This document shows, piece after piece, positions 5,971 to 41,649 of a DNA stretch of 51,820 nucleotides. The first letter of the stretch is position 1. Every line of letters begins with the position of its first letter. The stretch is from Pelagibacterales bacterium SAG-MED47. GTDB taxonomy: Bacteria > Pseudomonadota > Alphaproteobacteria > Pelagibacterales > Pelagibacteraceae. A program made the translations under genes and the position numbers. Under the pieces are notes generated by a model. That model was not told where the DNA came from. It worked only from the letters and a program-made list of their open reading frames with translations, and did not search any database. Location: NCBI GenBank assembly GCA_014653355.1, contig JACWEO010000008.1, forward strand, positions 1 to 51,820, read 5' to 3'.

Positions 5971-6027
5971 TCCTATTTTGAACATATCAGCATTGCAAAA
6001 AATGCATAAGTAAGATATATTCTTTAT

Positions 6028-24707: not shown

Positions 24708-25169
24708 ATGATTGATAAAAGAAAATTCTTAAAATTATTAGGATTTTCTTACTTGTTATTTTTAACGTTACCTTACAGGGTTTTATCATCAGCAACCAAA
24801 AAAATTATTAATCGAAATCTTTCAAAAGCCCAAAAAAATGTAATGTTTAATGAGGGCACAGAAAGAGCTTTTACAAGTGATTTGCTCAAAGAAGATAGAG
24901 AAGGATTTTACCATTGTGCAAATTGTAATGCTAAGCTATTTGCATCTAATTCAAAATTTGATAGTGGAACGGGATGGCCTTCATTTTCAAAGGCGTTACC
25001 AGGAGCATTTAAAACAAAAATAGATTATTCATTTGGTATGAAGCGAGTTGAATATCATTGTGCAAACTGTGGTGCTCATCATGGTCATGTTTTTTTAGAT
25101 GGTCCAACTGCTACTGGAAAAAGATTTTGTAATAATGGATTGTGTTTAATTTTTATTCCAGAAAATTAA
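24708..25169 (+). CDS. msrB: Exported peptide-methionine (R)-S-oxide reductase MsrB
   Basis: 153 residues. The first 30 are a signal/anchor region: K-R-K-F-L-K-L-L-G-F-S (Tat-like, but with K-R instead of R-R) then a hydrophobic stretch. The MsrB domain follows from about residue 43: two zinc C-x-x-C pairs (H-C-A-N-C and H-C-A-N-C-G), F-D-S-G-T-G-W-P-S-F and the catalytic Cys in K-R-F-C-N-N. It repairs oxidised methionine in envelope proteins. Neighbouring CcdA-type reductase activity would be needed for recycling. It overlaps the convergent HisD-like gene by 4 bp. Confidence 0.93.
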   Translation: MIDKRKFLKLLGFSYLLFLTLPYRVLSSATKKIINRNLSKAQKNVMFNEGTERAFTSDLLKEDREGFYHCANCNAKLFASNSKFDSGTGWPSFSKALPGAFKTKIDYSFGMKRVEYHCANCGAHHGHVFLDGPTATGKRFCNNGLCLIFIPEN

Positions 25170-26452: not shown

Positions 26453-26513
26453 AGTTTTTATTTGAATTAATGCGACTATTTAATGCAAATTAGTTTTTTT
26501 TTCAATGAAAGTA

Positions 26514-27425
26514 TTAATCTAAGGCTACCACTGCAGCAGCAATCGAGGCTAATCTGGCAGGTGCTTCGTCTGATCGACTTGTAATTACCACTGGTACTTT
26601 ACCACCAATTACAACTCCAGCAGCACAGGCTCCACAGAAATATATTAACATTTTAACTAAAGCATTTCCTGTTTCTACGCTTGGAACCAATAAAACATCA
26701 GCTTCGCCAGCTACAATATTTTGTATTCCCTTAATTGATGCTGATTTTTTTGAAATACTATTATCAAAAGCAAGTGGACCAAAAACATCTGCATTTAAAT
26801 TGTCTTTTTTAGCTAGTTTAGTTATTTCAGCTGCATCCCTAGAACTTGGAACACTATCTAGTACCTCTTCAGTAGCAGAAAGAACAGCAACTTTTGGCTT
26901 ATTAATTCCAATTCTATTCGAAAAATTTATTACGTTTTTTAAAATATGCATTTTTGTTTTTATATTTGGTAAAACATTTAATGCTCCGTCAGTAATTATT
27001 AATGGTTTGCTCTCTTTCTTAATAGTCATATGCCAAATATGACTTAATCTAGTTTTTCCTAATAAGTTATATTCTCTTTTTAAAACTTCTTTCATTAAAA
27101 TATCTGTGTGAATATGACCTTTAACAATAATTTTAACCTTTTTTTCACTTGCTAATTTTGCTGCTATTGGTGCAGTATTATTTTCAACTGGTTCATTTAT
27201 AATTTCATAATTAGAAATATCCCATTTCAAATCTTCAGCACATTTCAAAATTTCTTTTTCATCACCAATGAAAATTGGTTCTATTAAATTCTCATTCACT
27301 GCATCTTGCACAGAAAGCATAGGTAAGGGTTTACCTGCATTAACTATTGCTGCTTTAACTCCTTTTTTTTTATGAGCAACATCTAAAAGATTATTTGGAC
27401 AGACTATTTCTTTGTTTGATAGCAT
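26514..27425 (-). CDS. Phosphate acetyl/butyryltransferase-like protein
   Basis: 303 residues, PTA_PTB fold. Landmarks are P-I-F-I-G-D-E-K-E near residue 50, L-I-I-T-D-G-A-L-N-V-L-P in the middle, V-A-V-L-S-A-T-E-E-V near 178, and G-P-L-A-F-D-N-S-I-S-K-K-S-A with G-A-C-A-A-G-V-V-I-G-G toward the end. It interconverts acyl-CoA and acyl-phosphate. In taurine catabolism a Pta normally uses acetyl phosphate released by Xsc; here no xsc is adjacent. It starts 4 bp after the LDH2 gene and has a 61-bp gap before the HpsN-like gene. Confidence 0.87.
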   Translation of the reverse strand: MLSNKEIVCPNNLLDVAHKKKGVKAAIVNAGKPLPMLSVQDAVNENLIEPIFIGDEKEILKCAEDLKWDISNYEIINEPVENNTAPIAAKLASEKKVKIIVKGHIHTDILMKEVLKREYNLLGKTRLSHIWHMTIKKESKPLIITDGALNVLPNIKTKMHILKNVINFSNRIGINKPKVAVLSATEEVLDSVPSSRDAAEITKLAKKDNLNADVFGPLAFDNSISKKSASIKGIQNIVAGEADVLLVPSVETGNALVKMLIYFCGACAAGVVIGGKVPVVITSRSDEAPARLASIAAAVVALD

Positions 27426-27429
27426 GAAT

Positions 27430-28434
27430 TTAATTTTTAAGTATTTTTAAGTCTTTTTTAATTGTTTCTGAAATTTTAATATCCTTTTTTGAATTCATTT
27501 TGAACCTTTTAAACTTATTTTCACCAGGGTACATAATATTTTTTACACCTTTAATTTTAGGTAATTTTTTAATTGTTTTAATATTATTTTTAATTCTACT
27601 ATTATAATCCTTCACAAATAAATTTGTTTTAAATGTGATAAATAAATGGCCGATATTTTGTGGACCAGAAAAATCGTCAAATGGGTCTTTTACTCTGCCA
27701 GCATGATTACTACCTGTCAATACACCACTTAAAATATCAACCATCCAAGCTAATCCCGAACCTCTGAAACTAGCAATAGGTAATTGAACTCCTTTCAGAG
27801 CTTTTTTTGCATCTGTTGTGGGTTTACCAAATTTATCTAAAGCAACACCTTCAGGAATTTTTTGATTATTTCTTGCAGCTACTCTAATCTTTCCTCTATT
27901 AATCATTGAAATAGAGGTATCCAAAATAAATGGAATCTTTGAACCTGTAGGAGTTCCAAAACAAATCGGGTTAGTACCAAATAAACTTTTTAATGCTCCA
28001 TGAGGAGCTACTGCTGGTGGTGCACTTGTGTAAATCATAGTAACCAGATTTTTTTTTACTGCTTGTTCTGCATAATATCCTGAAAGACCATAATGACCGC
28101 TATTTTTTACCGCAACCATTCCTATTCCTGTTTTAGTTGCATTTTGAATTGCTTTTTTTATAGCAATATCCGCAGCCACAAAACCTATACTATTATTTGC
28201 ATCCACAAGTGAGATAGATTGTGAAATCTTTTTAATCTTAATTTTAGGTTTTGAAATAATAACTTTTTTAGAAATTCTCTCACAATACATTTTTAATCGT
28301 GAAAGACCGTGCCCGTAAGCACCCACTAACTCAGCATTGATTAAAGCATTAGCTGAAATCAAAGCATGATTATTGTTTAAGCCAAATTTTTTAAAGATTT
28401 TAACAACTTCTTTTTTTAAAATATCCGTTTTCAA
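27430..28434 (-). CDS. LDH2/MDH2-family (ComC/sulfolactate-type) NAD(P) dehydrogenase
   Basis: 334 residues. Begins with a TTG codon at 28434, preceded by AAAGGA and only one base after the tauC stop. The catalytic His/Arg block G-A-Y-G-H-G-L-S-R-L, the N-S-G-H-Y-G-L-S-G-Y-Y substrate loop and F-G-T-N-P-I-C-F-G-T-P are those of the LDH2 superfamily (malate, sulfolactate, ureidoglycolate, 2-keto-acid dehydrogenases). Position inside a tau operon suggests a sulfonated hydroxy acid such as sulfolactate, but the substrate is inference. Confidence 0.88.
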   Translation of the reverse strand: MKTDILKKEVVKIFKKFGLNNNHALISANALINAELVGAYGHGLSRLKMYCERISKKVIISKPKIKIKKISQSISLVDANNSIGFVAADIAIKKAIQNATKTGIGMVAVKNSGHYGLSGYYAEQAVKKNLVTMIYTSAPPAVAPHGALKSLFGTNPICFGTPTGSKIPFILDTSISMINRGKIRVAARNNQKIPEGVALDKFGKPTTDAKKALKGVQLPIASFRGSGLAWMVDILSGVLTGSNHAGRVKDPFDDFSGPQNIGHLFITFKTNLFVKDYNSRIKNNIKTIKKLPKIKGVKNIMYPGENKFKRFKMNSKKDIKISETIKKDLKILKN

Positions 28435-28435
28435 A

Positions 28436-30361
28436 CTATCCTTTTCCGCGCCATGGGATTGTTTTATCTATAATTTTTCTCAAAGTGATATCAAACAGCA
28501 ATCCAAGCATACCCATTATAAATATTGTTATCCAAATCACTTCATATTGAAAATATTTTTTTGCAACATTTTCTACAAATCCAATACCCGTTGTACCTGC
28601 TAAAAACTCTGCTGCAACTAAAGTTCCCCAACACATACCTACTGCAACTCTTATACCAGTAAGAATTTCTGGTAGTGAGTTAGGAAATATTACGTGTCTT
28701 AGTATTTGTCGTTTAGATGCTCCCAATGAATGAGCGGCATGAATTTTAGAAAGCTGAGTCCCAGAGGCACCAGCTCTAGCTGAAATAATCATAATTGATA
28801 AAGAAACCATAAATAAAAGAAATACTTTTCCGGTGTTATCTATACCTAATACAGAAATAATTAGTGGTGCCCAAGCTAAAGGAGGAACAGGTCTATAAAG
28901 TTCAATCAAAGGATCAAAAAAACCTTTAGCAAATCTATTTAGCCCCATGAACAAACCTAATGGTACACCAATGATTATTCCAAACACCAATCCCAGAAAA
29001 ACTCTTAAAAATGAGTCCCAAATGTGTCCGTAAGGTACTGGCACCTTAAATAGTTTGAAATCACCTGTTACAACTTTCAAAACATTACCTTTGAAATTTT
29101 CTTTTACAATTCCATCTTTAGTGTGAACAGGATACTCACCAGGTAAAATATCTGCTATCCAATCAGGTAAAATAAATCCAATCATTTTACTGACATCAAC
29201 CATATCTATCCAAAGAAGAGGTATATCTTTGTAACCAACGCTTGGTTTTGACATTAATATAAATTTATTAAAAGTATCTGATGGTTTTGGAAGCCATCTA
29301 CCAGAACCTTGTTCAGAACAACTTGGACCACTAGCAACTATCGTTCCAGCTGGGAATAACAAAATATCTATAAATCTTAGACCACCCTGTGTTTTTAATT
29401 GTGCATTATCAAATTTAATAATAGCGTTTTGCATTTTGTCTAATGCATTAGGTGGATATATACTTGCGAATTCTATTCTTCTTGCGATTTTTACAATATT
29501 TTTTGCATAGGTAGATACTACTTCCTCACTATCACTTAGATTTTTTCTATAAGATTTAATATCATCTTTTAGTTTTTTAATTTGATTTTTAAATTGAGGA
29601 TTATGATTTCTTAGTTTAAAAAATTCATCACTAATTAAGTTTAATTGTTGTGCAGCAGCATGAAATTTTAAACCTTTATTAGTGGCTGGAATTAAAGGTA
29701 CTTCCATCGTATTTTCTATAGAACCAGTTCCTGATTGTACTTTTACAATTCCCCATCCACCTTCTTCACTTACAGCTTTAAGTCTTTCATTAAGCTCCTG
29801 TTCGGTTTCAAAGGGATAATCTGGTTTTTGAAAATTTTCAGTTAAAAGGTTAATTTTACCTGTTATGCCATTAATCTTTTGTTTAGTTTCATTTTCAATC
29901 AAATCTTCATTTGTTAATAATGGAATTAATTGATTTGTTTTTTTTATAAATCCTGCAAGAACTGTTTTTTGCTGATTATCTATTTCTTGAGAATTTTGTA
30001 TTTCGTTTAAAATTAGATTAAGGTTTTTATTTTCTTTTTTGATTTGAGATGTGCTTTTGAATTCTCTTTCTTCAATAGGAAATTGATATTTTAAACCTAG
30101 CAATGAATCATTTACTTTTGCTACTTGGCAAAGTTCGTTAGCAGATTTTGGATAAAATCCTTTTGCAATATCCCATGAATAATATAGCCAAACTAAAAGA
30201 AGAAAACTGCTTCCTACGATAACCCAATGCGTACCACCTAATGCTCTTTCAGGATTACCAAATACTGCATCAACTTTTTCAGTTTTAATTAATTTTCTTC
30301 CATAAAGAATACAGCCGATAACTGCTACAAAAATTAAAAAAGTTATTATTTGAGTAAGCAT
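28436..30361 (-). CDS. tauC: ABC transporter permease, TauC-like with large N-terminal domain
   Basis: 641 residues, over twice the usual TauC size. Residues about 447-641 are the normal six-TM BPD permease, including the EAA-type loop H-A-A-H-S-L-G-A-S-K-R-Q-I-L-R. The first 446 residues contain two TM segments (about 4-20 and 46-65) and a long, probably periplasmic helical region (70-330), then A-G-T-I-V-A-S-G-P-S-C-S. The ATG follows the tauB stop with no spacer. It takes up taurine or a related sulfonate with TauA and TauB. The extra domain has no obvious known family by eye. Confidence 0.9.
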   Translation of the reverse strand: MLTQIITFLIFVAVIGCILYGRKLIKTEKVDAVFGNPERALGGTHWVIVGSSFLLLVWLYYSWDIAKGFYPKSANELCQVAKVNDSLLGLKYQFPIEEREFKSTSQIKKENKNLNLILNEIQNSQEIDNQQKTVLAGFIKKTNQLIPLLTNEDLIENETKQKINGITGKINLLTENFQKPDYPFETEQELNERLKAVSEEGGWGIVKVQSGTGSIENTMEVPLIPATNKGLKFHAAAQQLNLISDEFFKLRNHNPQFKNQIKKLKDDIKSYRKNLSDSEEVVSTYAKNIVKIARRIEFASIYPPNALDKMQNAIIKFDNAQLKTQGGLRFIDILLFPAGTIVASGPSCSEQGSGRWLPKPSDTFNKFILMSKPSVGYKDIPLLWIDMVDVSKMIGFILPDWIADILPGEYPVHTKDGIVKENFKGNVLKVVTGDFKLFKVPVPYGHIWDSFLRVFLGLVFGIIIGVPLGLFMGLNRFAKGFFDPLIELYRPVPPLAWAPLIISVLGIDNTGKVFLLFMVSLSIMIISARAGASGTQLSKIHAAHSLGASKRQILRHVIFPNSLPEILTGIRVAVGMCWGTLVAAEFLAGTTGIGFVENVAKKYFQYEVIWITIFIMGMLGLLFDITLRKIIDKTIPWRGKG

Positions 30362-31159
30362 TTAAATATCTTTCCCCATAATTTCTTCTTCCATATTCCA
30401 AATCATTTCTAATATTTCTTCACGTTTTGTGGAAAAATCCTTATTTTTTTTAATTTCTCTTAAATCTTCTTTTAATCCCATCGTAGCAAAAGGTAGATTG
30501 TATTCTTTATGTATACGGCCTGGTCTAGGAGCCATCACGTAAAGTCTTTCACCAAGTAATAAAGCCTCTTCAACTGAGTGAGTAATTAAAATAATTGTCT
30601 TTCCAGTTTCTTTCCAAATTTTCAAAACTAAAGACTGCATTTTTTCTCTGGTTAATGCATCAAGTGCGCCTAATGGTTCATCCATTAAAATTAAATCTGG
30701 ATCGTTAATAAGGCATCTTGCTAGAGCAACTCTTTGCTGCATTCCTCCTGACAATTGATAAGTTGGAGTATTACCAAATCCTCGTAAACCTACAATTTCT
30801 AACCACTCATCTACTTTTTTTGCAGTTTGTATTGGATCTTCTTTCTTCATTCTTAATCCAAAGTTTACATTCTCTGCAACAGTTAACCATTCAAACAAAG
30901 CTCCTTGTTGAAAAACCATTCCTCTTTCAACACCAGGGCCATCAATCTCTTTATTATTTAAAGTGATAATTCCTGAAGTTGGCCTGATAAATCCTGCGGT
31001 GATATTAAGTAAAGTTGTTTTTCCACAACCAGATGGACCGAGAACTGTAAGAAGTTCTCCTTTTTTAAGTGTAAAATTTAAATCTTTTAAAGCATGAACT
31101 GTTTCTCCTTTTGGAGTCTTAAAAATCATATTAAGATTTTGAGAAATTAGATCACTCAT
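30362..31159 (-). CDS. tauB: ABC transporter ATP-binding protein, TauB-like
   Basis: 265 residues. Walker A is G-P-S-G-C-G-K-T-T near residue 42, the signature L-S-G-G-M-Q-Q-R-V-A-L-A near 137, Walker B L-I-L-M-D-E-P-L-G-A-L-D, and the H-loop I-L-I-T-H-S-V-E-E-A, all typical of the nitrate/sulfonate/taurine ATPases. It powers uptake through the TauC-like protein, whose gene follows without spacer. An 88-bp spacer with a strong terminator-like hairpin separates it from tauA upstream. Confidence 0.92.
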   Translation of the reverse strand: MSDLISQNLNMIFKTPKGETVHALKDLNFTLKKGELLTVLGPSGCGKTTLLNITAGFIRPTSGIITLNNKEIDGPGVERGMVFQQGALFEWLTVAENVNFGLRMKKEDPIQTAKKVDEWLEIVGLRGFGNTPTYQLSGGMQQRVALARCLINDPDLILMDEPLGALDALTREKMQSLVLKIWKETGKTIILITHSVEEALLLGERLYVMAPRPGRIHKEYNLPFATMGLKEDLREIKKNKDFSTKREEILEMIWNMEEEIMGKDI

Positions 31160-31187
31160 AAAATGACTTTATATTAAAATTTCTAAT

Positions 31188-31227
31188 AAAAAAATAGGCA
31201 CCAATTTAATAAAATTGGCGCCTATTT
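31188..31227 (-). terminator. Terminator/attenuator between tauA and tauB
   Basis: Read on the minus strand, a 16-bp stem (arms at 31212-31227 and 31192-31207, 4-nt loop) with one G-U pair is followed by a 7-base T-run (31194-31188). On the plus strand the same pair would be A-C, so the structure favours minus-strand RNA. It sits right after tauA, fitting partial termination to give more tauA than tauBC mRNA. Confidence 0.8.
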
Positions 31228-31247
31228 AAATTTTAAATACCTTTAGA

Positions 31248-32189
31248 TTATAAAGGTAAGAAACTAGTGTCTACGTTTCCTCTTGGCGTACCCATTCCTT
31301 TTAAGAATGCATCAAGATTTCCTTTAGTCATAGATTGCGCAGTTTCTTCTGGAGTTAGAAATTTAAATCCACTTAAAGTTTCTTTCATATCTCCAACTTT
31401 CATTTCAGAAGCTTTAGCCATAACATTCATATTGCTTTTGCCAGCTTTATATCTTGCATTAGCTTCATGAGTTACTTCTATAAATGTTCTAAGCATTCCA
31501 GGATTTTCCTTCATAAACTTTGTTGTAACTGAAGTGATATCAATTCCTAGGATACCTGCTTTTCTTGCTTCATCAACTGTAAGTAATCTTGAACCAACTG
31601 CAGTTGCAGCTTTAATTGAATTACCACCAAACAAACATGCCATTACGACATCACCACTAACTAAAGCAGCAGCTCCTTCTTCAGGATCCATTTGAATAAT
31701 ATCCATTTTGCCTCTGTCAGCTCCAACAACTTTCATACTTTCGTCAAAAACGTATTCAGCCATTGTTCCTAATGGAACAGCAACTTTTTTACCTTCTAAT
31801 TCAGTAGCATTTGCTTTTGTAATTCCAGAAGCATTAGAAGTAACACAAGTTGTTCCTCCCATTCCGTATTCCATAGCAATATCAACTAATTTAATTGGCG
31901 CTTTAGATTTAACAGCATTAATGAAAGGTACTAAACCTTGAGAATAAGAAATATCTATATCCCCTGCAAGCATAGCGTCAGTCATTGCTCCACCGTTTGT
32001 GAAATTTGTCCATTTAACTGGAACACCAAGAGCTTTAGCGAATGCTTTTTTTTGCATATCCTCTAAATTTGGACTTGGCCATTCTAGAAAATAGGCAACT
32101 CTAACTTCGTTAGCAGCCGCATTTGCAGCAGAAATACTTAAGTTAAGAGCTACAAAACATCCTAGAAGAAAACTTATTATTTTTTTCAT
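31248..32189 (-). CDS. tauA: Taurine-type ABC transporter substrate-binding protein TauA
   Basis: 313 residues with signal peptide (L-L-G-C-F-V-A-L-N-L-S-I-S-A-A-N-A). The mature protein starts V-R-V-A-Y-F-L-E-W-P-S-P and follows the SsuA/TauA bilobed layout (G-A-M-T-D-A-M-L-A-G-D-I-D-I-S-Y, K-K-V-A-V-P-L-G-T-M-A-E, and S-G-D-V-V-M-A near the hinge). It binds taurine or a relative in the periplasm. First gene of the minus-strand operon; a T/A-rich leader with AGGGG site precedes the ATG. Ligand is inferred from family and context. Confidence 0.88.
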   Translation of the reverse strand: MKKIISFLLGCFVALNLSISAANAAANEVRVAYFLEWPSPNLEDMQKKAFAKALGVPVKWTNFTNGGAMTDAMLAGDIDISYSQGLVPFINAVKSKAPIKLVDIAMEYGMGGTTCVTSNASGITKANATELEGKKVAVPLGTMAEYVFDESMKVVGADRGKMDIIQMDPEEGAAALVSGDVVMACLFGGNSIKAATAVGSRLLTVDEARKAGILGIDITSVTTKFMKENPGMLRTFIEVTHEANARYKAGKSNMNVMAKASEMKVGDMKETLSGFKFLTPEETAQSMTKGNLDAFLKGMGTPRGNVDTSFLPL

Positions 32190-32403
32190 TTATTCCCCTA
32201 TCTTTAATTATTTAATTGTAGATATTAAAATTCAATTTTGAATAGAAGTAAAACAAATTATATCTGGAACCAGAATTGCAAATTTTTCAATTGTACAATT
32301 CAAAGTTGTATTATATAGTTAGTTTAATTTAAGTTTTAATAAATTTATAGCAAACAAACTAATTTAGTCTATTAATTTAAGAATACTTAAATATTAATTA
32401 ATT
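32190..32403. promoter_or_regulatory. Divergent control region between tauA and the aminotransferase gene
   Basis: This 214-bp spacer drives both arms of the sulfonate/amine island. Two perfect inverted repeats stand out: TCTGG-AA-CCAGA (32263-32274) and the palindrome AATTGTACAATT (32289-32300). The second resembles half-site pairs of GntR/FadR-type operators, the first contains the CTGG core also present in known TauR (MocR) sites. No regulator gene is adjacent, so the factor is unknown. Confidence 0.55.
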
Positions 32404-33750
32404 ATGAGCTCAGAAAACAGAACAAATATTCCAAATTCGCTAAATGAACATTGGATGCCGTTTACATCCAATAAAGATTTTAAAAAAAATCCTAGATTAA
32501 TTACTGAAGCAAAAGGTGTCTATCTTAAAACACACCATGGAAAAACCCAAATTGATGCAAGCTCGGGTTTGTTTTGTAATCCTCTTGGTCATGGAAGAAA
32601 AGAAATAACAGAAGCAGTTACAAAACAATTAGAAACTTTAGATTATGCCCAACCATTCCAACAAGGTTTTGGTGGCTCATTTGAATTAGCTACTAAAATT
32701 TCAAAACATACACCAGGTGATTTAAATAAAATTTTTTATACAATTTGTGGCTCTACGGCAGTTGAGACTGCTCTTAAAATTGCAATTGCGTATCATAGAG
32801 CCAAAGGTCATGCAGAAAGATTTAGATTTGTAGGTAGAGAGCGTGGATATCATGGAATGAACATTGGATGTATTTCAGTTGGAGGTATGGTAAATAATGT
32901 TAAGACATTTGCTAGTGTTCTTATGCCTGGCGTTCAACATATAAGCCATACTCATTTACCAGAACATAAATTTGTTAGTGGTCAACCAGAGACAGGTGAT
33001 TACTTAGCAAATGATTTAGAAACTATTTGTGCAAACTTTGGTGGAGAGAATATTGCAGCATGTATTGTTGAACCTATTGCCGGATCCACAGGTACTTTGG
33101 TTCCTCCAAAAGGATATTTGCAAAAACTAAGACAGATTTGTGACAAGCATGGAATTCTATTAATTTTTGATGAAGTTATCACTGGATGGGGAAGGACTGG
33201 ATCAAAGTTTGCAGCACATGAGTTTGGAGTTACTCCAGATATAATGACAATGGCAAAAGCAACAACTAATGGAGTTGTTCCAATGGGTGTTGTTGCATGT
33301 AACGATTATATTTATGATGCTGTTATGGACTCATCTCCAATGGGATCAGTAGAATTATTTCATGGTTATACTTATTCAGGAATTCCTGTTGCAGTGGCTG
33401 CTGCATTGGCAGTTCAAGACATTTTTGAAAAAGAAGATATTTTTAATCGAGCAAAAGATTTAGCACCTTATTTTCAAAAAGGTTTATTCTCTCTTCAAGA
33501 TTTAGAATCTGTAGATAACATAAGAGGTTATGGAATGATGGGTGGAATAGATATGAAACTAAATACAAAACCTGGTAAGGCTGGATATGAAACTTTTAAA
33601 TCATGTTATGAAGCAGGTGTAAACTTTAAAGCAACAGGTGATTGTTTAATCATTGCTCCACAATTTATATGTGAAAAAAAACACATTGATGAGATTATTG
33701 ATAAATTAAGAACAGGTATCATTAACTATCAAAAGAACCAAAAGAACTAG
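32404..33750 (+). CDS. Class III omega-amino-acid/taurine:pyruvate aminotransferase
   Basis: 448 residues. N-terminal H-W-M-P-F-T-S-N-K-D-F and P-R-L-I near 15-32 resemble the omega-amino acid:pyruvate aminotransferase of Pseudomonas. PLP motifs include I-F-D-E-V-I-T-G-W-G-R-T-G and the lysine in T-M-A-K-A-T-T-N-G-V-V-P-M-G. By family it transfers an amino group from beta-alanine, taurine or similar to pyruvate, making alanine. The alanine dehydrogenase 43 bp downstream would regenerate pyruvate, and the divergent tau genes support taurine as a substrate (Tpa role, inferred). Confidence 0.88.
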   Translation: MSSENRTNIPNSLNEHWMPFTSNKDFKKNPRLITEAKGVYLKTHHGKTQIDASSGLFCNPLGHGRKEITEAVTKQLETLDYAQPFQQGFGGSFELATKISKHTPGDLNKIFYTICGSTAVETALKIAIAYHRAKGHAERFRFVGRERGYHGMNIGCISVGGMVNNVKTFASVLMPGVQHISHTHLPEHKFVSGQPETGDYLANDLETICANFGGENIAACIVEPIAGSTGTLVPPKGYLQKLRQICDKHGILLIFDEVITGWGRTGSKFAAHEFGVTPDIMTMAKATTNGVVPMGVVACNDYIYDAVMDSSPMGSVELFHGYTYSGIPVAVAAALAVQDIFEKEDIFNRAKDLAPYFQKGLFSLQDLESVDNIRGYGMMGGIDMKLNTKPGKAGYETFKSCYEAGVNFKATGDCLIIAPQFICEKKHIDEIIDKLRTGIINYQKNQKN

Positions 33751-33793
33751 TTAGTTTATATTTTACATATCTATAATAACACAGAGAGAGATA

Positions 33794-34912
33794 ATGCGGA
33801 TAGGCGTACCTAAAGAAATAAAACCTCAAGAAAATAGAATTGGGTTAACACCTGAAAGTGTAAAAACTTTAGTATCTGAAGGTCACGAAGTTTTAGTTGA
33901 AAATAATGGTGGTTTTGAAGCTGGTTTTGATAATGATCAATATACAAAAGCTGGTGCTAAAATAGCTAGTAATGCAGCTGACATTTTTAATGATGCTGAA
34001 ATAATTGTTAAAGTAAAAGAGCCTCAAAAGGTTGAAGTAGATATGATAAGAGAAAATCAAATTATTTATACTTATCTTCATTTAGCTGCTGCAAAAGAAC
34101 TTACAGAGGGATTAATTAAATCTAAAAGTATTAATATTGCTTATGAAACTGTTACTGATGATAATGGTAGACTTCCTTTGCTTGCACCTATGAGTGCTGT
34201 TGCAGGACGAATGTCTGTTCAAGCAGGAGCACATTGTTTAGAAAAAAATCAAAAAGGTAGAGGTCTTTTATTAGGAGGTGCACCAGGAGTAACTGGTGGA
34301 ACAGTTGTTATTTTAGGTGGTGGAGTAGTTGGGGAAAATGCTGCAGTTATAGCGACAGGGATGCAAGCTAAAGTTCATATAGTTGATAAATCAGAAGCAA
34401 GACTCAATCAATTAGTTGAAATGTTTGGTGATAAAATTATTCCTGAACAAAGTGATAAAATAGATTTAAATAATTTAATTGCAGAAGCAGATCTAGTAGT
34501 TGGGGGTGTACTTATACCTGGAGCTGAAGCACCAAAATTAGTTACAAAAGATATGTTAAAATTAATGAAAAGAGGTTCTGTAATAGTTGATGTAGCAATA
34601 GACCAAGGAGGGTGTGTTGAAACTAGCAAACCAACAACTCATGGTGACCCAACTTACATAGTTGATGATGTTGTTCATTATTGTGTAGCAAATATGCCTG
34701 GTGGAGTTCCTAGAACTTCAACATTAGCTTTAAATAAAGCAACACTTCCTTTTTTAGTAAAATTAGCAAACAAAGGTTTCCAAAAAGCTTTAGGGGAAGA
34801 TAAAAACTTTTTAGCAGGATTAAATGTTCATAAAGGCCATGTGACTTATAAAGCAGTTGCAGATGTATTTGGACACGAATATCTTGATCCTGGAGAAGCT
34901 ATCAAAAATTAA
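33794..34912 (+). CDS. ald: Alanine dehydrogenase
   Basis: 372 residues. The N-terminal M-R-I-G-V-P-K-E-I-K-P-Q-E-N-R-I-G is the ALD start block. It has the pyruvate-side H in Y-L-H-L-A-A and the NAD site V-I-L-G-G-G-V-V-G-E-N-A-A near residue 173. It converts alanine to pyruvate, ammonia and NADH. With the aminotransferase upstream it forms the Tpa/Ald cycle that releases ammonium while recycling pyruvate. An AGAGAGAGAT purine run precedes the ATG; the next gene is 4 bp away. Confidence 0.96.
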   Translation: MRIGVPKEIKPQENRIGLTPESVKTLVSEGHEVLVENNGGFEAGFDNDQYTKAGAKIASNAADIFNDAEIIVKVKEPQKVEVDMIRENQIIYTYLHLAAAKELTEGLIKSKSINIAYETVTDDNGRLPLLAPMSAVAGRMSVQAGAHCLEKNQKGRGLLLGGAPGVTGGTVVILGGGVVGENAAVIATGMQAKVHIVDKSEARLNQLVEMFGDKIIPEQSDKIDLNNLIAEADLVVGGVLIPGAEAPKLVTKDMLKLMKRGSVIVDVAIDQGGCVETSKPTTHGDPTYIVDDVVHYCVANMPGGVPRTSTLALNKATLPFLVKLANKGFQKALGEDKNFLAGLNVHKGHVTYKAVADVFGHEYLDPGEAIKN

Positions 34913-34916
34913 TTAA

Positions 34917-37361
34917 ATGGAAAAAAAACTACCAAATAGCACTAAGGTTGTTGTTATTGGAGGTGGTGTAGTAGGTTGTTCTGTTGCTTATCACTTAGCT
35001 AAATTTGGTTGGAAAGATACAATTCTTTTAGAAAGAGATCAGCTAACATCAGGAACAACTTGGCACGCAGCAGGATTGGTTAGTCAACTAGGTCCAACAG
35101 CTGCAATAACTAAGATAAGAAAATATACATTAGATTTATATAAAAAACTTGAAAAGGAAGTTGATCATTCTGCGGGTTTAAGATTAAACGGCGCCCTTTC
35201 AATTGCTCAAAATAAAGGAAGATGGCAAGAACTTCAAAGACAAGCAACTACGGCACAACTTTATGATGTTGATGTAAGAATTTTAGATAAAAATCAAATT
35301 AAAAAAGATTATCCAATTATTAATACTGATGAAGTCATTGGTGGAATTTTAATGCCTGGAGATGGTGCTGCTGATCCATCAGGTGTTACTCATATGTTGG
35401 CTAAAGCTGCAAGAAAAGAGGGAGCACAAATTTTTGAAAAATCTCCAGTAGATGAAATTTTAACTAAGAATGGAAAAATCTCAGGAGTAAAAGTTAATGG
35501 TCAAGAAATTGAATGTGAATATATTGTTTTAGCATCTGGAATGTGGTCAAGACAAATTGGAGAAAAAGCTGGAGTAAGTATCCCACTTTATCCTGCTGAA
35601 CACTTTTATATTATTACTGAACCAATAGAAAATTTGTCTAAAACATTACCTGTAATTAGAGACTTTGATAATCGAACTTATATTAAAGAAGATGCAGGTA
35701 AAATATTAGTTGGTATTTTTGAGGGAAATTCTATTCCCGCTTGGGATAAGACAAACAAAGTACCAGAAGATTTTTCTTTTGGTGAGTTTCAAGAGAATTT
35801 TGAACATTTTGAACCTTATTTAGCCTCTGCTATTAAAAGATTTCCAGTTTTAGAGTCTGCTGGTATTAGAAAATTCTTTTCAGGACCAGAGTCTTTTACA
35901 CCTGATACAAATACATTATTAGGAGAAGTGCCAGAAGTTAAAAACTTTTTTGTTTGTTGTGGGTTAAATAGTATTGGTATAGGGAGTGGAGGAGGTGTTG
36001 GTAAAGTTACCGCAGAATGGTTAATGACTGGCCATATCAATGAAGATATTTTTAGCTACGATATAAAAAGATTTCAAAAATTTCATTCAGAATTGGGTTT
36101 TATTAAAAAAAGGATTACAGAGACCTTAGGGGATTTATATGGAATGCATTGGCCATTCAAGCAACATAAAACCTCTAGAAATATTAAAACTTTACCTCAC
36201 CATGATAATCTAAAAAGCTTTGGTGCATGTTTTGGTGTTTCAGGTGGCTATGAAAGACCTATGTGGTTTGCTTTGGATGGGGAAAAAGCTGAGTACGAAT
36301 ATAGTTACAATTATCAAAGCTGGTATCCATCTGCTGAATATGAAACAAATAATACAGTTAAAAATGTTGGTTTGTTTGATTTAACTCCTTTTTCTAAGTT
36401 TGAAATAAAATCAGATAAAGCACATCAAGAATTACAGAAAATTTGTACTGCAAACATTAAAAATGAACCTGGTAAATGTGTTTATACACATATGTTAAAC
36501 CCTGATGGTGGAATAGAGACAGATTTAACAGTTGTATGTATTGATAAAAATCATTTTAGAATAATAAGTTCTGCAGCAACAAGAGAGAGAGATAAATTTC
36601 ATATTAACAAACATCTTTCAAAAAATGTTGAATTAAAAGATATTACAGATGATTTATGTGTGTTTGGTTTGTTTGGTCCAAAAAGTAGAGATTTACTTAA
36701 AACATTAAGCGAAGATAATTTTGAAAATGATCAATTTAAATTTGGATTTGCAAAGTTTATTACAATTGATGGGGTTAAAATCTGGACACAAAGATTATCT
36801 TATGTAGGTGAATTAGGCTATGAGCTATATGTAGATCTTAAAGATGCAAAAAAAATATACGAATTACTTATAGAAAAAGGTAAAGATTTTAATCTTTCTA
36901 ATTGTGGAATGCATGCAATGGATATTATGCGAATGGAAAGTGGATTTTTACATTGGGGACATGATATTTCCCCCGAAGAGAACCAGTATCAAGCAGGTTT
37001 AGCTTTTACTATTAGCAATAAAAAAGATGTAGATTTTATAGGTAAACAAGCTCTTGAAAAAATTAAACAAGATAAAGTTAAAACTAGATTTTCAATGTTT
37101 ACTTTAAAAGAAAGTGAACCTGGAAAACCATTATTACTTCATGATGAACCTATCTATATTGATGAAAAAATTATAGGAAGATCAACATCTGGAAACTATT
37201 CATTTAATTTTAAAAAGAATTTAGTATTTGGATATATCGATAATGATTTTTCCAATGAAGAACTTCAAAATAAAAACTTATTTATTGAGGTAGAAAAAAA
37301 GAAATATTCAATAGAAATAATCAACAAACCTTTAAAACAAACAAATTTTAAAAATAATTAA
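34917..37361 (+). CDS. FAD-dependent dimethylglycine/sarcosine dehydrogenase-like protein with GcvT domain
   Basis: 814 residues, DMGDH/SARDH architecture. FAD-binding G-G-G-V-V-G-C-S-V-A at about 15-24; the His that holds FAD covalently in DMGDH is present in T-T-W-H-A-A-G-L. The DAO domain runs to about 370 (S-I-G-I-G-S-G-G-G-V), followed by a linker and a C-terminal GcvT fold (about 440-790) for tetrahydrofolate-bound one-carbon acceptance (D-L-T-P-F-S-K-F-E-I and G-E-L-G-Y-E-L-Y). It demethylates an N-methylated amine; the exact substrate is unknown. Confidence 0.92.
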   Translation: MEKKLPNSTKVVVIGGGVVGCSVAYHLAKFGWKDTILLERDQLTSGTTWHAAGLVSQLGPTAAITKIRKYTLDLYKKLEKEVDHSAGLRLNGALSIAQNKGRWQELQRQATTAQLYDVDVRILDKNQIKKDYPIINTDEVIGGILMPGDGAADPSGVTHMLAKAARKEGAQIFEKSPVDEILTKNGKISGVKVNGQEIECEYIVLASGMWSRQIGEKAGVSIPLYPAEHFYIITEPIENLSKTLPVIRDFDNRTYIKEDAGKILVGIFEGNSIPAWDKTNKVPEDFSFGEFQENFEHFEPYLASAIKRFPVLESAGIRKFFSGPESFTPDTNTLLGEVPEVKNFFVCCGLNSIGIGSGGGVGKVTAEWLMTGHINEDIFSYDIKRFQKFHSELGFIKKRITETLGDLYGMHWPFKQHKTSRNIKTLPHHDNLKSFGACFGVSGGYERPMWFALDGEKAEYEYSYNYQSWYPSAEYETNNTVKNVGLFDLTPFSKFEIKSDKAHQELQKICTANIKNEPGKCVYTHMLNPDGGIETDLTVVCIDKNHFRIISSAATRERDKFHINKHLSKNVELKDITDDLCVFGLFGPKSRDLLKTLSEDNFENDQFKFGFAKFITIDGVKIWTQRLSYVGELGYELYVDLKDAKKIYELLIEKGKDFNLSNCGMHAMDIMRMESGFLHWGHDISPEENQYQAGLAFTISNKKDVDFIGKQALEKIKQDKVKTRFSMFTLKESEPGKPLLLHDEPIYIDEKIIGRSTSGNYSFNFKKNLVFGYIDNDFSNEELQNKNLFIEVEKKKYSIEIINKPLKQTNFKNN

Positions 37362-38209
37362 TTTTTATTTTTTAAAAGAAAAACAAATATAAATCCAGTT
37401 ATATACATTGTTAATCCATAAGCGGCGGTTGGAGTTATATATAAAATATCAGTACCAAATATTTGAGTTGAAACAAATATTGCTAATGTACCATTTTGTA
37501 GACCACATTCTAAAGCAATACATTTCATTTGTTTAATTCCTGAGGCAAAAGATTTTGCAAGATAATAAGCAGTAATCATCATTGTTATATTAAGAACTAA
37601 AGCAATTAGACCAGCTTGTTTAAAGAAACTAATAAAGTTTTCCCTTTCTTCATAAAATGCTGCTATGAAAAAAATAATAAACAAAACGATATTAAGTTTG
37701 TTAAATATTTGAGTTTTTGAAGCCACAAAGTTTTCAGCAAATTTTCTTATAATCATTCCCAAGACAACTGGAACCGTTACAACTAAAAACATCTTAAGTG
37801 CTATACCAGTCATTGAAATATTTTGAGAAATATTTGTAATTCCAAATAAATCAGCAGATGTAAAAATTATAAGAGGAACTGTAATAATAGAAATTAAACT
37901 AATTATAGCTGTTAAAGTAATAGATAAAGCGACATCTCCATTGGCAAATTTAGTTAATATATTTGATGTAACTCCACCTGGTGCAGCAGCAATAATCATA
38001 ACTCCAATAGCAATTTCAGGCGGTGTTTTTAAAATAATAATTAATAAGTAAGCAACTAACGGAAGAATTATTAATTGAGAAAAAAAACCTACAAAAAAAT
38101 CTTTTGGAGTTTTTAATACTCTCGTAAAATCTTCAATTTTTAAACCTAAACCCAAACCCAACATTATTAATGCGAGTATGATAGGTGCTATTTTTGTTAC
38201 TACATCCAT
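37358..38209 (-). CDS. BASS-family (bile acid:sodium symporter-like) transporter
   Basis: 283 residues, about nine hydrophobic segments. The motif A-A-P-G-G-V-T-S-N near residue 75 and the E-C-G-L-Q-N-G-T-L-A segment near 227 are the conserved sodium-site regions of BASS proteins. It would import an organic anion (bacterial relatives carry pantoate, pyruvate or similar) with sodium. It ends 4 bp inside the convergent DMGDH-like gene. Substrate unknown. Confidence 0.9.
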   Translation of the reverse strand: MDVVTKIAPIILALIMLGLGLGLKIEDFTRVLKTPKDFFVGFFSQLIILPLVAYLLIIILKTPPEIAIGVMIIAAAPGGVTSNILTKFANGDVALSITLTAIISLISIITVPLIIFTSADLFGITNISQNISMTGIALKMFLVVTVPVVLGMIIRKFAENFVASKTQIFNKLNIVLFIIFFIAAFYEERENFISFFKQAGLIALVLNITMMITAYYLAKSFASGIKQMKCIALECGLQNGTLAIFVSTQIFGTDILYITPTAAYGLTMYITGFIFVFLLKNKN

Positions 38210-38275: not shown

Positions 38276-39295
38276 TTATGAAATTGTCAAAAGATTAAGA
38301 ACTTTTCTAATGAATTTAGCTTTATTTTTGAAAATTAATTTTTGATATGGCAAAACTCTTCGAACATTAAAACCTGTTAAAATATATTGTTTTTTTTCAT
38401 TTAATCTTAAAAAATCATTTTTTATTAAAAACTTACATTTTCTAATTACTGTTGCTCGAGGGATTCCAGTCATATCAGAAACAGACATTGCACTAACACC
38501 GTTACTTCTAGCTTTATCACCTCTTATTAACTCTTCGTTAAATGTATTATAATCACCTGTAAATAGTTCTTTCTGAAAATCCATATAGTCATGTGTTTGA
38601 TTGGAGCCGTTCCTTTTATTTAAGGTTACGGAATAATTAAAAGCTTGGTTCATACAAACTGTTCCCCAAACGTGAAATGTTGTTAAGTCCTCAAACATAT
38701 CATGATATCCAATAATCATTGGAATTTGCATCCTATAAAACCATCTCCAACAAATAGAGAAATTTTTCTTTAACACATTTTCAATCGTTTTTACTTCAAG
38801 TTTTTTGGAATAAAGTTTTTCTTTAGCAAGTATTTCTGAGATTTTCAAAATATAACCAGCTGTATATTTCATTTGGTTTTCAGGTTTAATAAAAGTAAAT
38901 GACCTTCGATCAATTATAATTTGTTTTTTCTGTCTTTTAAGAACTCCTAATTTTTCAAGTTCTAAAACTTTTCTTCTAACAGTTTCTTTTGGTAGTTGAA
39001 GTTTTTCACATAACTCTGTGATACTAAATTTATCTATTTGTAGAAAATTTTTTGAATAATATTGCTCATACGATAATTTAATATTCATCTGATCATAAAA
39101 CTGTAAAGTTTTTTCAACTAAAGAAATGATAATCATATATTTATAATGATCCTTGAAAGCTTGATAAACTGCATTCATCCACCTCCACTGATGATTGATC
39201 CAATCTTTTCCTAATTGATCATAGTTGGCCATCATATGATTATAAACCTGCTCATCGTTTAGAACTTTTGAAAAATCTATTTGTTGTAAATTCAT
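38276..39295 (-). CDS. Two-winged-helix DNA-binding regulator of unknown family
   Basis: 339 residues from the ATG at 39295; a frame from 39343 exists but lacks a ribosome site and would run into the spacer. Two helix-turn-helix units are evident: about 90-133 (I-T-E-L-C-E-K-L-Q-L-P-K-E-T-V-R-R-K-V) and about 265-305 (V-S-D-M-T-G-I-P-R-A-T-V-I-R-K-C), both followed by a basic wing. The regions between are aromatic/helical without known domain. It is probably a transcription factor acting on the divergent small membrane-protein genes (inference). Confidence 0.72.
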   Translation of the reverse strand: MNLQQIDFSKVLNDEQVYNHMMANYDQLGKDWINHQWRWMNAVYQAFKDHYKYMIIISLVEKTLQFYDQMNIKLSYEQYYSKNFLQIDKFSITELCEKLQLPKETVRRKVLELEKLGVLKRQKKQIIIDRRSFTFIKPENQMKYTAGYILKISEILAKEKLYSKKLEVKTIENVLKKNFSICWRWFYRMQIPMIIGYHDMFEDLTTFHVWGTVCMNQAFNYSVTLNKRNGSNQTHDYMDFQKELFTGDYNTFNEELIRGDKARSNGVSAMSVSDMTGIPRATVIRKCKFLIKNDFLRLNEKKQYILTGFNVRRVLPYQKLIFKNKAKFIRKVLNLLTIS

Positions 39296-39407
39296 AATTG
39301 TATAAATGAGATTTGAAACCCAAAATGGACATGTGTCAACCATATTATGACCCAGTATGAACTTTTACAAAATTGTTAAGTATCTATTTTGTTGGTTAAA
39401 TGTAATC

Positions 39408-39635
39408 ATGAGTGATAAAGGCTTTGCAGATAATAAAACTAGTATCGAGACCCCAAATGATATTGGAGTTGCTGAAAAGCCTTTATCAAATCAAACTATT
39501 TCTGGAAGAGTGGATATTAACGTTCTTAAGTCAAAACTACAAGAGAGTGAAAGCAAAGAATTAAAAAAAAATATTTCTATTCTTGTAGTATTAATTCTGG
39601 GACTAGGAGTTATGGGAATTTACTTATCTTTATGA
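39408..39635 (+). CDS. Small tail-anchored protein 1
   Basis: 75 residues from the ATG at 39408 (M-S-D-K-G-F-A-D-N); an upstream in-frame ATG at 39357 adds an unlikely aromatic-rich leader. The soluble N-terminal part is polar; one C-terminal TM helix (I-L-V-V-L-I-L-G-L-G-V-M-G-I) ends the protein. The segment R-V-D-I-N-V-L-K-S-K-L before the TM recurs in the next gene. The stop overlaps the next ATG by 4 bp. Unrecognised family. Confidence 0.65.
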   Translation: MSDKGFADNKTSIETPNDIGVAEKPLSNQTISGRVDINVLKSKLQESESKELKKNISILVVLILGLGVMGIYLSL

Positions 39636-39883
39636 TTTCATTTGCAAAAATATATATCAGGTGGTTTAATACAACTGTGAAAAAAACTGGTTCAAGCGTA
39701 AAAGATAAAATAGTTTCTAAATACTTTGAAACTACTACAGTAAAATACCAACCCAAGAGAAGTGACATTAATGTTCTATTGAATAGAATAAAGGTTAACA
39801 AAAAAAGTGAGTCTAGAAAAAAATTATATTTTTCAGCTGCAGCTTCAACGGGAATTCTTCTTTTTGGACTAATAATTTTTTAA
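39632..39883 (+). CDS. Small tail-anchored protein 2
   Basis: 83 residues; N-terminal basic amphipathic part (R-W-F-N-T-T-V-K-K), then R-S-D-I-N-V-L-L-N-R-I and a C-terminal TM helix (F-S-A-A-A-S-T-G-I-L-L-F-G-L-I-I-F). The shared R-x-D-I-N-V-L-x-x-K/R-L/I plus TM layout suggests the two proteins are related or form a pair. It overlaps the preceding gene by 4 bp (ATGA). Function unknown. Confidence 0.65.
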   Translation: MISFAKIYIRWFNTTVKKTGSSVKDKIVSKYFETTTVKYQPKRSDINVLLNRIKVNKKSESRKKLYFSAAASTGILLFGLIIF

Positions 39884-39971: not shown

Positions 39972-40892
39972 ATGAAACAACCTTTAATATATATAGCTAC
40001 AACGACCATTAACCCGCCCACTAAAGCTCTTAAAAATTTTGCTAAAAATAAAAATTGTAAATTAATAGTTGCATTGGATAAAAAATCGAAAAAATTTAAC
40101 CTTAAAGATTCTGTTATCTTATCTACAAAGTATCAAGAAAAAAAATGGCCCAAACTATCAAAGCTAATTGGTTGGAATTGTATTCAAAGAAGAAACTTTG
40201 CAATCTTAGAAGCTTATGAAAGAGGTGCGCAAATAATAGGTCTGATAGATGATGACAATATTCCATATTCTAACTGGTTTAAAAATATATATGTAAATAA
40301 AAATTTTAAATGTGATGAAATAAAAATTAATAAACCAATTTTTGACCCAGTTGGATATACCAATTATTCTAATCTATGGCATAGGGGAATGCCATTAGAG
40401 TATGTTAATGGTAGAAAATATTTAAAATTAAAAAAATCAAATATTAAACCAGATGTACAAGCAAATTTTTGGAATGGCGATCCAGATATTGATGCAGTTT
40501 GTAGAATGGTACTAAAACCACAATGTAATTTTAAAAAAAATAAATTTCCTTTTTTTTCAAATAAAATTTCTGTTTTTAATTCACAAAATACTTTAATTAC
40601 TAGAAAAGTTGTAAAAGATTATTTTTTATTTCCACACATCGGTAGAATGGATGATATTTGGGCTTCGTTTTATGTTACGTCAAAAAAATATAGAATTGTT
40701 TATAATGAACCAACCGTCTATCAACAAAGAAATGCTCATAACTTATTAAAAGATTTTAAAGATGAGTATATAGGTTATGCCAATTCTTCAAGTTTAGTTG
40801 AGAGCTTAAAAAAAAACCCTGAAAATATATATAATTTTTTACCTAAGAGAAGCGCACAAGCTTTTGATGAATGGAAAAAATTAACTAGGTAG
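39972..40892 (+). CDS. STELLO (DUF288)-family glycosyltransferase
   Basis: 306 residues. The start I-A-T-T-T-I-N-P-P-T-K-A-L-K-N-F-A, then L-S-T-K-Y-Q near 50, and I-D-D-D-N-I-P near residue 96 match the STELLO/DUF288 layout, where D-D-D is the metal/nucleotide-sugar site. It lacks the membrane anchor of plant STELLO proteins, so it should be cytosolic. Likely role is transfer of a sugar to a surface polymer; donor and acceptor are unknown. It is 31 bp before a second glycosyltransferase. Confidence 0.75.
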   Translation: MKQPLIYIATTTINPPTKALKNFAKNKNCKLIVALDKKSKKFNLKDSVILSTKYQEKKWPKLSKLIGWNCIQRRNFAILEAYERGAQIIGLIDDDNIPYSNWFKNIYVNKNFKCDEIKINKPIFDPVGYTNYSNLWHRGMPLEYVNGRKYLKLKKSNIKPDVQANFWNGDPDIDAVCRMVLKPQCNFKKNKFPFFSNKISVFNSQNTLITRKVVKDYFLFPHIGRMDDIWASFYVTSKKYRIVYNEPTVYQQRNAHNLLKDFKDEYIGYANSSSLVESLKKNPENIYNFLPKRSAQAFDEWKKLTR

Positions 40893-40923
40893 CTATTCTA
40901 TAATTTAAATATAAAATTGTTCA

Positions 40924-41649
40924 ATGAGTCTAGAAAATATTAAAAATGATTATTTTGAATTTGTGATTGGTATTACAGTAAAAAAAGAGAATGAAATTGA
41001 TAATTTTGTTAACGAATTATTTAATCACTTACCAGAAAAAGTACTTATAGTTTTATTTTTTGACAGTTCTAGAGATTTATCTACTTTTAAAAAATCAGAA
41101 GAGCTCGCTAAAGATAAAAAAAATATTTTAATTATTTATGATGATAAAACCAAAAACTTAGCTGATGCTTATTTTAGATTATATAAATTTTGTTCCAACC
41201 TTAATACAAAATGGGTAATTTCTATGAACGCTGGTTGGAGGCACAAACCTGAGGATTTGATAAAATTTGTTAATTTGTCCGATAAAGAGAATATAGATTG
41301 TGTTTGGGGGTATAGAGAAAAAGCAAATAATAAGCATCATATACTCAGAAAATTGATAAGTTATTTTGGGGGAGTGATAAGTGATATATTTCTCAATATT
41401 AAAATAAAGGACCTTACTTCAGGTTTTTACATGATTAGAACGAGTGTTTTAAAAGCAGAACTTTTAAAAAAAAATCATTTTATTTCTAAATTTCATTTTT
41501 TTGATACTGAGCTTAAATTTTATTTAAAAAACTATTCTTTTGAACAAGTAAAAATAATCTATAAAACACCCAATAACTCATTACCTTTTAAAATTATTCT
41601 AGACTCGCTTAAAGTACTGATTTATCTTTTTATAAAGCGTGTCAATTGA
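40924..41649 (+). CDS. GT2-like (DPM1-type) glycosyltransferase with altered metal site
   Basis: 241 residues. GT-A type 2 pattern: A-D-A-Y-F-R-L-Y near 79, then the place where DPM1/polyprenyl-phosphate transferases have M-D-A-D reads I-S-M-N-A-G-W-R-H-K-P-E-D-L. The K-D-L-T-S-G-F-Y-M-I-R block (DTSGF-like) is present near residue 159. Thus the acidic DxD metal motif is lost. The C-terminal hydrophobic helix may bind the membrane. It might be inactive or use a different metal logic. Probably cotranscribed with the STELLO-type gene. Confidence 0.72.
   Translation: MSLENIKNDYFEFVIGITVKKENEIDNFVNELFNHLPEKVLIVLFFDSSRDLSTFKKSEELAKDKKNILIIYDDKTKNLADAYFRLYKFCSNLNTKWVISMNAGWRHKPEDLIKFVNLSDKENIDCVWGYREKANNKHHILRKLISYFGGVISDIFLNIKIKDLTSGFYMIRTSVLKAELLKKNHFISKFHFFDTELKFYLKNYSFEQVKIIYKTPNNSLPFKIILDSLKVLIYLFIKRVN

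Follow-up and report, generated by a model that had tools for sequence, protein, structure and literature searches.

Small tail-anchored proteins of Pelagibacteraceae and their genomic linkage to a tandem winged-helix regulator, a BASS-type transporter and a predicted two-copy operator

Two small genes, designated A and B, were analysed in a 51,820-nucleotide stretch of DNA from Pelagibacterales bacterium SAG-MED47 (assembly GCA_014653355.1, contig JACWEO010000008.1, positions 1 to 51,820; hereafter the window). They belonged to one family of membrane proteins whose members were linked to the genes of a tandem winged-helix regulator and a BASS-type transporter. The family, its motif, the purifying selection acting on it, the genomic linkage and a two-copy DNA site were all evident from sequence. 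We tentatively propose, as a quite possible reading, that A and B are the membrane-side partners of a self-regulated regulator/transporter module, a biochemical role that we infer from this setting. The original prediction had described a pair of small membrane proteins forming a duplicated, undescribed family; the observation was right, its interpretation was right but incomplete, and the family is undescribed in the databases searched. The new part is the genomic setting, namely the regulator, the symporter and the two-copy site, all of which lie beyond that prediction.

The features of the window, in order of position and with the basis of each in brackets, were as follows.

34917 to 37361, + strand: dimethylglycine/sarcosine dehydrogenase-like flavoprotein with a GcvT-like C half; elsewhere, family members often lie directly behind its homologues (profile)
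37358 to 38209, - strand: BASS-type transporter, related to the bile acid:Na+ symporter family, 283 aa (profile)
38276 to 39295, - strand: tandem winged-helix regulator; family profile match from ATG 39295, reading frame open to 39343 (355 aa) (profile and model)
39311 to 39339, - strand: predicted regulator promoter, -35 TTGACA (39339-39334), 17-bp spacer, -10 TCAAAT (39316-39311) (sequence)
39318 to 39330, + strand: predicted operator copy 1, ACCCAAAATGGAC, within the -35/-10 spacer of the predicted regulator promoter (sequence)
39350 to 39362, + strand: predicted operator copy 2, ACCCAGTATGAAC, 32 bp from copy 1 (sequence)
39373 to 39401, + strand: predicted A promoter, -35 TTGTTA, 17-bp spacer, extended -10 TGGTTAAAT, ending 6 bp before ATG 39408 (sequence)
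39408 to 39635, + strand: A, 75-aa tail-anchored protein, motif RVDINVLKSK, membrane helix at residues ~55-75 (open reading frame and profile)
39642 to 39670, + strand: predicted B promoter, -35 TTGCAA, 17-bp spacer, extended -10 TGGTTTAAT, ending 6 bp before GTG 39677 (sequence)
39677 to 39883, + strand: B, 68-aa tail-anchored protein from GTG, motif RSDINVLLNR (start from relatives and the extended -10)

Motif and membrane topology of the family

Both open reading frames described at the outset were present, A with 75 aa at 39408-39635 and B with 83 aa when read from ATG 39632 (39632-39883), and so was the block that they were said to share just before the helix; across A and B, the family motif read [KR]-x-[DN]-I-N-[VI]-L and was followed by a basic stretch and then by the C-terminal hydrophobic helix. 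Conservation was assessed in 80 named SAR11 loci retained from 181 B relatives, all with titles of Pelagibacteraceae or Pelagibacterales: [KR]VDINxL[KR] was found in 78 of the 78 uninterrupted A proteins, and [DN][IV]N[VI]LLNR was found in 80 of the 80 B proteins, the latter count being partly built in because the loci were fetched with a B-motif pattern. The motif, whose absence from homologues would have spoken against the family, was thus kept throughout. The basic residue K41 was invariant in the aligned A proteins but not in that of L015, where R replaced K after INIL; the alignments comprised 24 of 30 A loci (A1, L015 left out) and 25 of 30 B loci (A2). In 2 of the 80 named loci (L143 and L181, both single-cell assemblies), A was broken by in-frame stops, representing either sequencing error or loss, and B and the regulator were recovered there by the same search that missed A (upstream of position 6001).

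The single C-terminal membrane helix expected of each protein was found throughout, with a hydrophobic 19-mer no more than 6 residues from the C terminus in 77 of 77 family open reading frames; the tail-anchored topology was assigned by the positive-inside rule only. The structure model of the L037 member displayed a disordered tail plus a single helix (residues 29-66 of 67) running from the motif through the membrane segment, with block pLDDT values of 86-95 over residues 31-67. The D/N of the motif immediately preceded this helix, and I, L, L and V made up one hydrophobic face of it; because D/N is a natural helix cap and these residues share a face, part of the motif conservation would be structural.

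Paralogy, selection and database status

The soluble parts of A and B from the window displayed modest similarity, since 31 of 5000 shuffles of B scored equally well. An hhalign comparison of the A profile with the B profile gave a probability of 95.6 and an E value of 1.2e-8 over 44 columns spanning the motif and the membrane helix, and A and B were therefore regarded as paralogues; this match, together with a tree carrying separate main A and B clades, supported the duplication proposed originally. The tree (73 rows, 62 columns) was weakly resolved and left some members outside both clades, and it contained (i) one clade of A-type members, including those parted from B (supports 96/86), and (ii) a second clade with most B-type members, among them the ones located behind the flavoprotein gene (96/90). 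In L028, L037 and L072, the second copy grouped with single-copy members, and L043 (SAR11_1220) formed a long branch outside the B clade with unsure placement. Both genes were under purifying selection, with median dN/dS values of 0.13 for A (177 non-independent pairs, all below 1) and 0.08 for B (151 non-independent pairs, all below 1).

A and B had no above-threshold match in Pfam, NCBIfam, PHROGs or PADLOC, consistent with an undescribed family; no relevant toxin or antitoxin family match was found in these four databases, and the best E value of a PDB sequence search with the small proteins was only 0.93. ETRAMPs (PF09716) are a secreted family of malaria parasites, and they are likewise small and lysine-rich with a membrane helix. 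The weak profile match to them was set aside as most likely a composition effect: B from the window scored 16.0 bits against a gathering threshold of 29.1, A had no match, and 7 of 26 family members matched with a best E value of 1.8e-4.

Distribution of the family

At E<=0.1, 104 of 151 genus genomes had a match to A, in many cases a weak one, and matches to the B profile at E<=0.01 were found in 44 of 118 genomes of the family sample, covering 6 of 14 genera. The family-wide profile A4 (E<=0.001) identified members in 79 of the 147 genomes of the order sample, comprising 67 of the 76 genus genomes plus 12 from other genera of the same family, and it found no member in the second family of that sample. 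The class sample of 240 genomes, which contained few Pelagibacteraceae, yielded matches in 8 genomes at E<=0.05, convincing only in the source genome itself and one further genus genome; no relative was present among 577 pattern matches in viral contigs. Convincing members were confined to Pelagibacteraceae in the samples examined. As to the pair, an adjacent pair of members was present in 19 of the 79 family-positive genomes, while 17 carried two separated copies and 43 a single copy; the pairing noted in the window is real, but it holds in one part of the genus only.

Start of B and predicted leaderless promoters

The overlap of the two genes, as first described, probably does not stand: the 4 bp are likely to be an effect of how the open reading frame was delimited, because 22 of 30 loci had no B start earlier than the equivalent of GTG 39677. 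An earlier in-frame start was present in the remaining 8, the window included, and B started ~41 bp after the A stop in most other loci.

The -10 hexamers read in the window were TTAAAT for A and TTTAAT for B. An extended -10 was located 4-8 bp before an in-frame start of B in 73 of the 80 named loci (65 exactly at 6 bp) and of A in 38 of 78 (25 at 6 bp and 13 at 5 bp), and the examined A genes that missed the strict pattern had near variants. In the control, comprising open reading frames of at least 150 aa with all in-frame starts tested in the same way as A and B, the extended -10 was found in 10 of 747, none at 6 bp. An extended -10 so near the start codon implies a leaderless message and makes ATG 39632 unlikely as a start; we infer that A and B are expressed from these predicted leaderless promoters.

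The regulator and its linkage to the family

The regulator gene was divergent from A in the window. Its structure model contained two winged helices (mean pLDDT 82), and an IclR-type helix-turn-helix scored 25.3 bits against a cut-off of 22, in keeping with a winged-helix fold. Neither the Pfam nor the NCBIfam results included an IclR ligand-binding domain, and the second half of the model was another winged helix with helices. Foldseek with the model gave nothing at E<=0.001, the best matches being single winged helices of CRP, MarR and IclR types (best E 0.06), and a PDB sequence search with the regulator returned winged-helix fragments only (best E 0.011). The winged helices also weakly resembled phage O-type replication initiators (4.5e-7) and CARF/Csa3 proteins (7e-8), and because of this resemblance the term transcription regulator is itself provisional. 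A 188-aa half-length relative with a single winged helix (L220 3448-4014, - strand) adjoined the BASS gene in G151, which suggests that the tandem regulator perhaps arose by duplication.

Strong regulator matches were defined by E<=1e-37 with profile A3, and 33 weaker or mostly half-length rows were set aside; the resulting 80 strong matches, two of them cut at contig ends, came from 76 of the 147 order-sample genomes. In this sample, 76 genomes had a strong regulator match, 79 had the small-protein family, 75 had both and 67 had neither. The class sample gave regulator matches in 9 of 240 genomes at E<=1e-4, at full length only in the source genome and one further genus genome, the other seven being shorter and weak. 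A family member lay within 205 bp of the regulator in 63 of the 80 strong matches, 53 divergent and 10 convergent, and the members adjoining the regulator were the A-type and single-copy ones; because 10 of these 63 neighbours were convergent, a shared promoter alone is insufficient to account for the linkage.

The 17 strong matches without a nearby member comprised (i) 9 in genus g4, where regulator and small protein lay on different contigs, and (ii) 8 others, including second or distant copies (SAR11_0047 in G176, G339, two in G193, one in G294, and G365) and a further two, in G135 (A-type gene 34 kb away) and G324 (cut at a contig end). The small protein was present without a strong regulator match in G112, G168, G173 and G330, and the regulator was present without the small protein in G365. 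Across the 76 genus genomes, the numbers with both, small protein only, partner only and neither were 65/2/1/8 for small protein and regulator (Fisher p 2e-8, ancestry uncorrected).

The BASS-type transporter

The gene product encoded at 37358-38209 matched TIGR00841 with 177.2 bits (NCBIfam cut-off 326.3) and E 4.7e-52 over 274 residues, and it was termed BASS-type because it was related to this model yet fell below the curated cut-off. A BASS gene was located within 1 kb of the regulator in 71 of the 80 matches (27 tandem, 34 convergent and 10 divergent), and the corresponding counts for small protein and BASS in the 76 genus genomes were 64/3/1/8 (p 8e-8, ancestry uncorrected), with the broken BASS gene of G351 counted as absent. 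In that genome, the gene was in two pieces, one with a stop (G351:C44:66176-66912), and regulator and small protein were also absent; regulator, BASS gene and small protein may be decaying jointly there.

Each pair of components was also met in partial form: (i) regulator plus BASS, the small protein being absent, in L198 (from gene order, SAR11_0047 plus SAR11_0048, the latter listed as a sodium symporter); (ii) regulator plus small protein without an adjacent BASS gene in SAR11_1248/1249; and (iii) BASS plus a degenerate-motif small protein with no nearby regulator (G193, L218).

AcrZ- and KdpF-like small proteins are a model for transporter accessory subunits, and A and B might likewise be small subunits that stabilise or tune the BASS-type symporter while being merely co-regulated with the rest. 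This explanation, which we regard as unlikely but worth keeping in view, fits the position of BASS beside the regulator in 71 of the 80 matches, its co-occurrence with the family, and the degenerate-motif member of G193 directly behind BASS with the regulator far off; it fits less well with HTCC1062 and G151, which have regulator and small protein with BASS elsewhere, with G004, which has BASS and no small protein, and with the conserved part, which is found in both the cytosolic and the membrane helix.

The predicted two-copy operator

In the clade of the window, a 13-bp site, ACCCANNWTGRAC, was found in two copies exactly 32 bp apart between regulator and A in 77 of the 80 named loci and in the window itself, and the 52-kb window had no further copies of it on either strand. 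Both predicted operator copies lay upstream of the predicted A promoter, and in 75 of the 77 loci TTGACA of the predicted regulator promoter lay between the copies at a constant position. A longer version of the site, TGACCCANNTTGAACTT, was scanned for in 19 genomes: (i) exact matches were found in 10 genomes, once each and always at the module locus; (ii) G000 and G252 had the site at the module locus with one mismatch; (iii) G167 had none within 2 mismatches at its own locus and two 1-mismatch sites elsewhere; (iv) G259 and G360 each had one 1-mismatch site elsewhere; and (v) the module-free genomes G004, G340 and G352 had 2-mismatch matches only, 8 in total versus 3 for the control pattern. 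In 526 kb from 45 loci chosen around module genes, 27 of the 35 sites with at most one mismatch were near a small-protein gene, and against these 35 sites the reversed pattern gave 11 and six permuted patterns 1 to 13.

The site was also present upstream of single members convergent to the regulator (L038, L040 and L079) and upstream of the L218 member, which adjoins BASS at a long distance from the regulator; in genus g4, whose regulator is not linked to the small protein, it was degenerate or weaker upstream of the small protein. No predicted operator was found upstream of B. Sites before BASS were weak: 6 of 20 BASS genes had one with at most 2 mismatches (3 with 1), compared with 36 of 209 genes in the same loci (19 with at most 1), a control that includes the module's own genes.

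The predicted operator is found mostly at this locus, which makes the small protein look like a main output of the regulator. This would fit some different kind of membrane effector, acting for instance under envelope or osmotic stress, on which a local regulator happens mainly to act; this is improbable in our judgement, as it leaves the retention of BASS with the regulator unexplained.

The flavoprotein and the wider neighbourhood

The window carried an organosulfonate-type cluster at 25166-37361 with HisD-like, phosphate acetyltransferase-like, sulfolactate-dehydrogenase-like, TauABC-like, omega-aminotransferase and alanine dehydrogenase genes together with the DMGDH/GcvT-like flavoprotein gene, and these neighbouring genes suggest that the context is the use of sulfonates or amino compounds. 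The TauC-like permease of this cluster (28436-30361, - strand, 641 aa) had an unusually long N-terminal extension, its first ~440 residues lying outside the permease model, and several relatives were of equal length. Directly downstream of B were two glycosyltransferase-like genes (39972-41649), the first with a weak STELLO match below the cut-off.

The small protein and the flavoprotein gave counts of 64/3/5/4 in the 76 genus genomes (p 0.003, ancestry uncorrected), so that presence of the small protein tracked regulator and BASS more closely than the flavoprotein, and the flavoprotein as main partner was ranked below them. A and B might instead be a membrane anchor or electron-transfer helper for the DMGDH/sarcosine dehydrogenase-like flavoprotein or its ETF partner, an explanation to which we assign a distinctly low probability. 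It draws on 30 flavoprotein loci picked from 71, of which 29 had a same-strand member no more than 300 bp downstream, a figure that is not a rate, and on the HTCC1062-clade member, which adjoins genes that we take to be ETF-QO and EtfAB/EtfBA (L206 5788-9133, L084 10676-13272). Against it, the flavoprotein occurred without the family in five genus genomes (G004, G296, G351, G352 and G365) and the family without the flavoprotein in three (G316, G348 and G364), and in the clade of the window A and B were not directly behind the flavoprotein gene.

A toxin-antitoxin or selfish unit, in which a small membrane toxin would be governed by an adjacent autoregulated DNA-binding protein, agrees with a small membrane protein adjoining an apparently self-regulated DNA-binding protein but is very improbable, given a regulator that exceeds 300 aa and carries two winged helices, in contrast to usual antitoxins, retention in streamlined genomes under purifying selection, no relative in viral contigs, and no PADLOC match for A and B.

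Relation to described genes and known systems

A literature search, mostly without subscription journals, found no paper discussing the small-protein family. SAR11_1249 and SAR11_1248 of Candidatus Pelagibacter ubique HTCC1062 belonged to the same small-protein and regulator families as the window genes, although SAR11_1249 was a single copy with no BASS gene beside it, and it is described as hypothetical or unknown where it is treated in PMC2704228 and PMC2217521. The gap between the G176 regulator and small-protein matches (1189853-1189956) corresponded exactly to the 104-bp gap between SAR11_1248 and SAR11_1249, which identifies G176 with HTCC1062; this intergenic region appears in a table of long, GC-rich gaps, in a row that names no RNA motif (PMC2704228). 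In the pertinent part of PMC2217521 (2007), SAR11_1248 is annotated as winged helix DNA-binding, SAR11_1249 and SAR11_1220 are unknowns without Sargasso homologues at its cut-off, and SAR11_1220 lies in HVR4 of HTCC1062 with one membrane helix, beside the sarcosine dehydrogenase SAR11_1221. By gene order, SAR11_1220 was a second, divergent family member (G176:1166755-1166931) behind the flavoprotein gene; that part of PMC2217521 mentions no relation between it and SAR11_1249.

The layout of the module, with a regulator and a putative membrane partner side by side, resembled known feedback control. Membrane-bound anti-activators and sequestering transporters include anti-sigma factors, Mlc/PtsG and MalT/MalK. 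Unlike those systems, the window combined a 60-80-residue tail-anchored protein with a tandem winged-helix regulator; with respect to an anti-activator, adjacency to the regulator was found in 63 of 80 matches, and the operator was predicted from sequence.

Proposed mechanism

In the proposed module, A and B would be small inner-membrane proteins anchored by the C-terminal helix with the N terminus in the cytosol, and A would belong to a compact unit with the tandem winged-helix regulator and the BASS-type symporter. The regulator would bind both sites together, on the same face of the DNA, since 32 bp is about three turns, and it would repress its own promoter, since one site lies between the -35 and -10 of that promoter. 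It would act on A from upstream, either driving or limiting it, with site centres at about -84 and -52 on the assumption that transcription begins at the ATG, and A and B would be made from leaderless messages. In the membrane-bound form, the N tail would be disordered and an unbroken helix would run from the motif D/N, probably as its cap, into the membrane. The exposed helix may serve as a docking surface, which we guess to be most likely for the regulator or the neighbouring transporter; docking is the simplest reading because of the remaining conservation and the close linkage with a regulator that has no obvious sensor domain. The small protein might then retain the regulator or let it go, or connect it with the transporter, so feeding back the state of the membrane or of transport. 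B either lost the operator or was without it from the start; in some relatives it lies behind the flavoprotein gene, and it may serve the same partner under another promoter.

Several findings count against this proposed module: (i) G112 and G330 have a B-type member only and no strong regulator match, so that the partner of B there would not be this regulator; (ii) genus g4 has an unlinked regulator with a degenerate site, no site was found upstream of B, and the sites before BASS are weak; (iii) in HTCC1062, SAR11_0047 occurs with BASS and no small protein, and SAR11_1248 with a small protein and no BASS; and (iv) 1-mismatch sites lie outside the module locus in G167, G259 and G360, and the reversed pattern still gave 11 sites. 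The motif could also owe its conservation to helix capping and insertion into the membrane instead of docking.

A more far-reaching version, which we consider possible but doubtful, is a minimal form of membrane-to-gene signalling, in which a regulator free of a ligand domain would take its input from 60-80-residue tail-anchored peptides, the DIN-x-L helix would dock the regulator to the membrane or to the Na+ symporter, and the regulator would control itself and the peptide via a 32-bp-spaced two-site operator and leaderless promoters. If true, this would be a new type of membrane-to-gene signalling in the most streamlined free-living bacteria.

Significance

SAR11 cells are among the most abundant in the sea and have very few regulators. 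A conserved module of regulator, transporter and small protein beside organosulfonate-type genes is accordingly a candidate for substrate sensing with almost no sensory apparatus, and two 'unknown' genes of HTCC1062 now share a family whose neighbourhood is defined and whose DNA site and partner can be tested.
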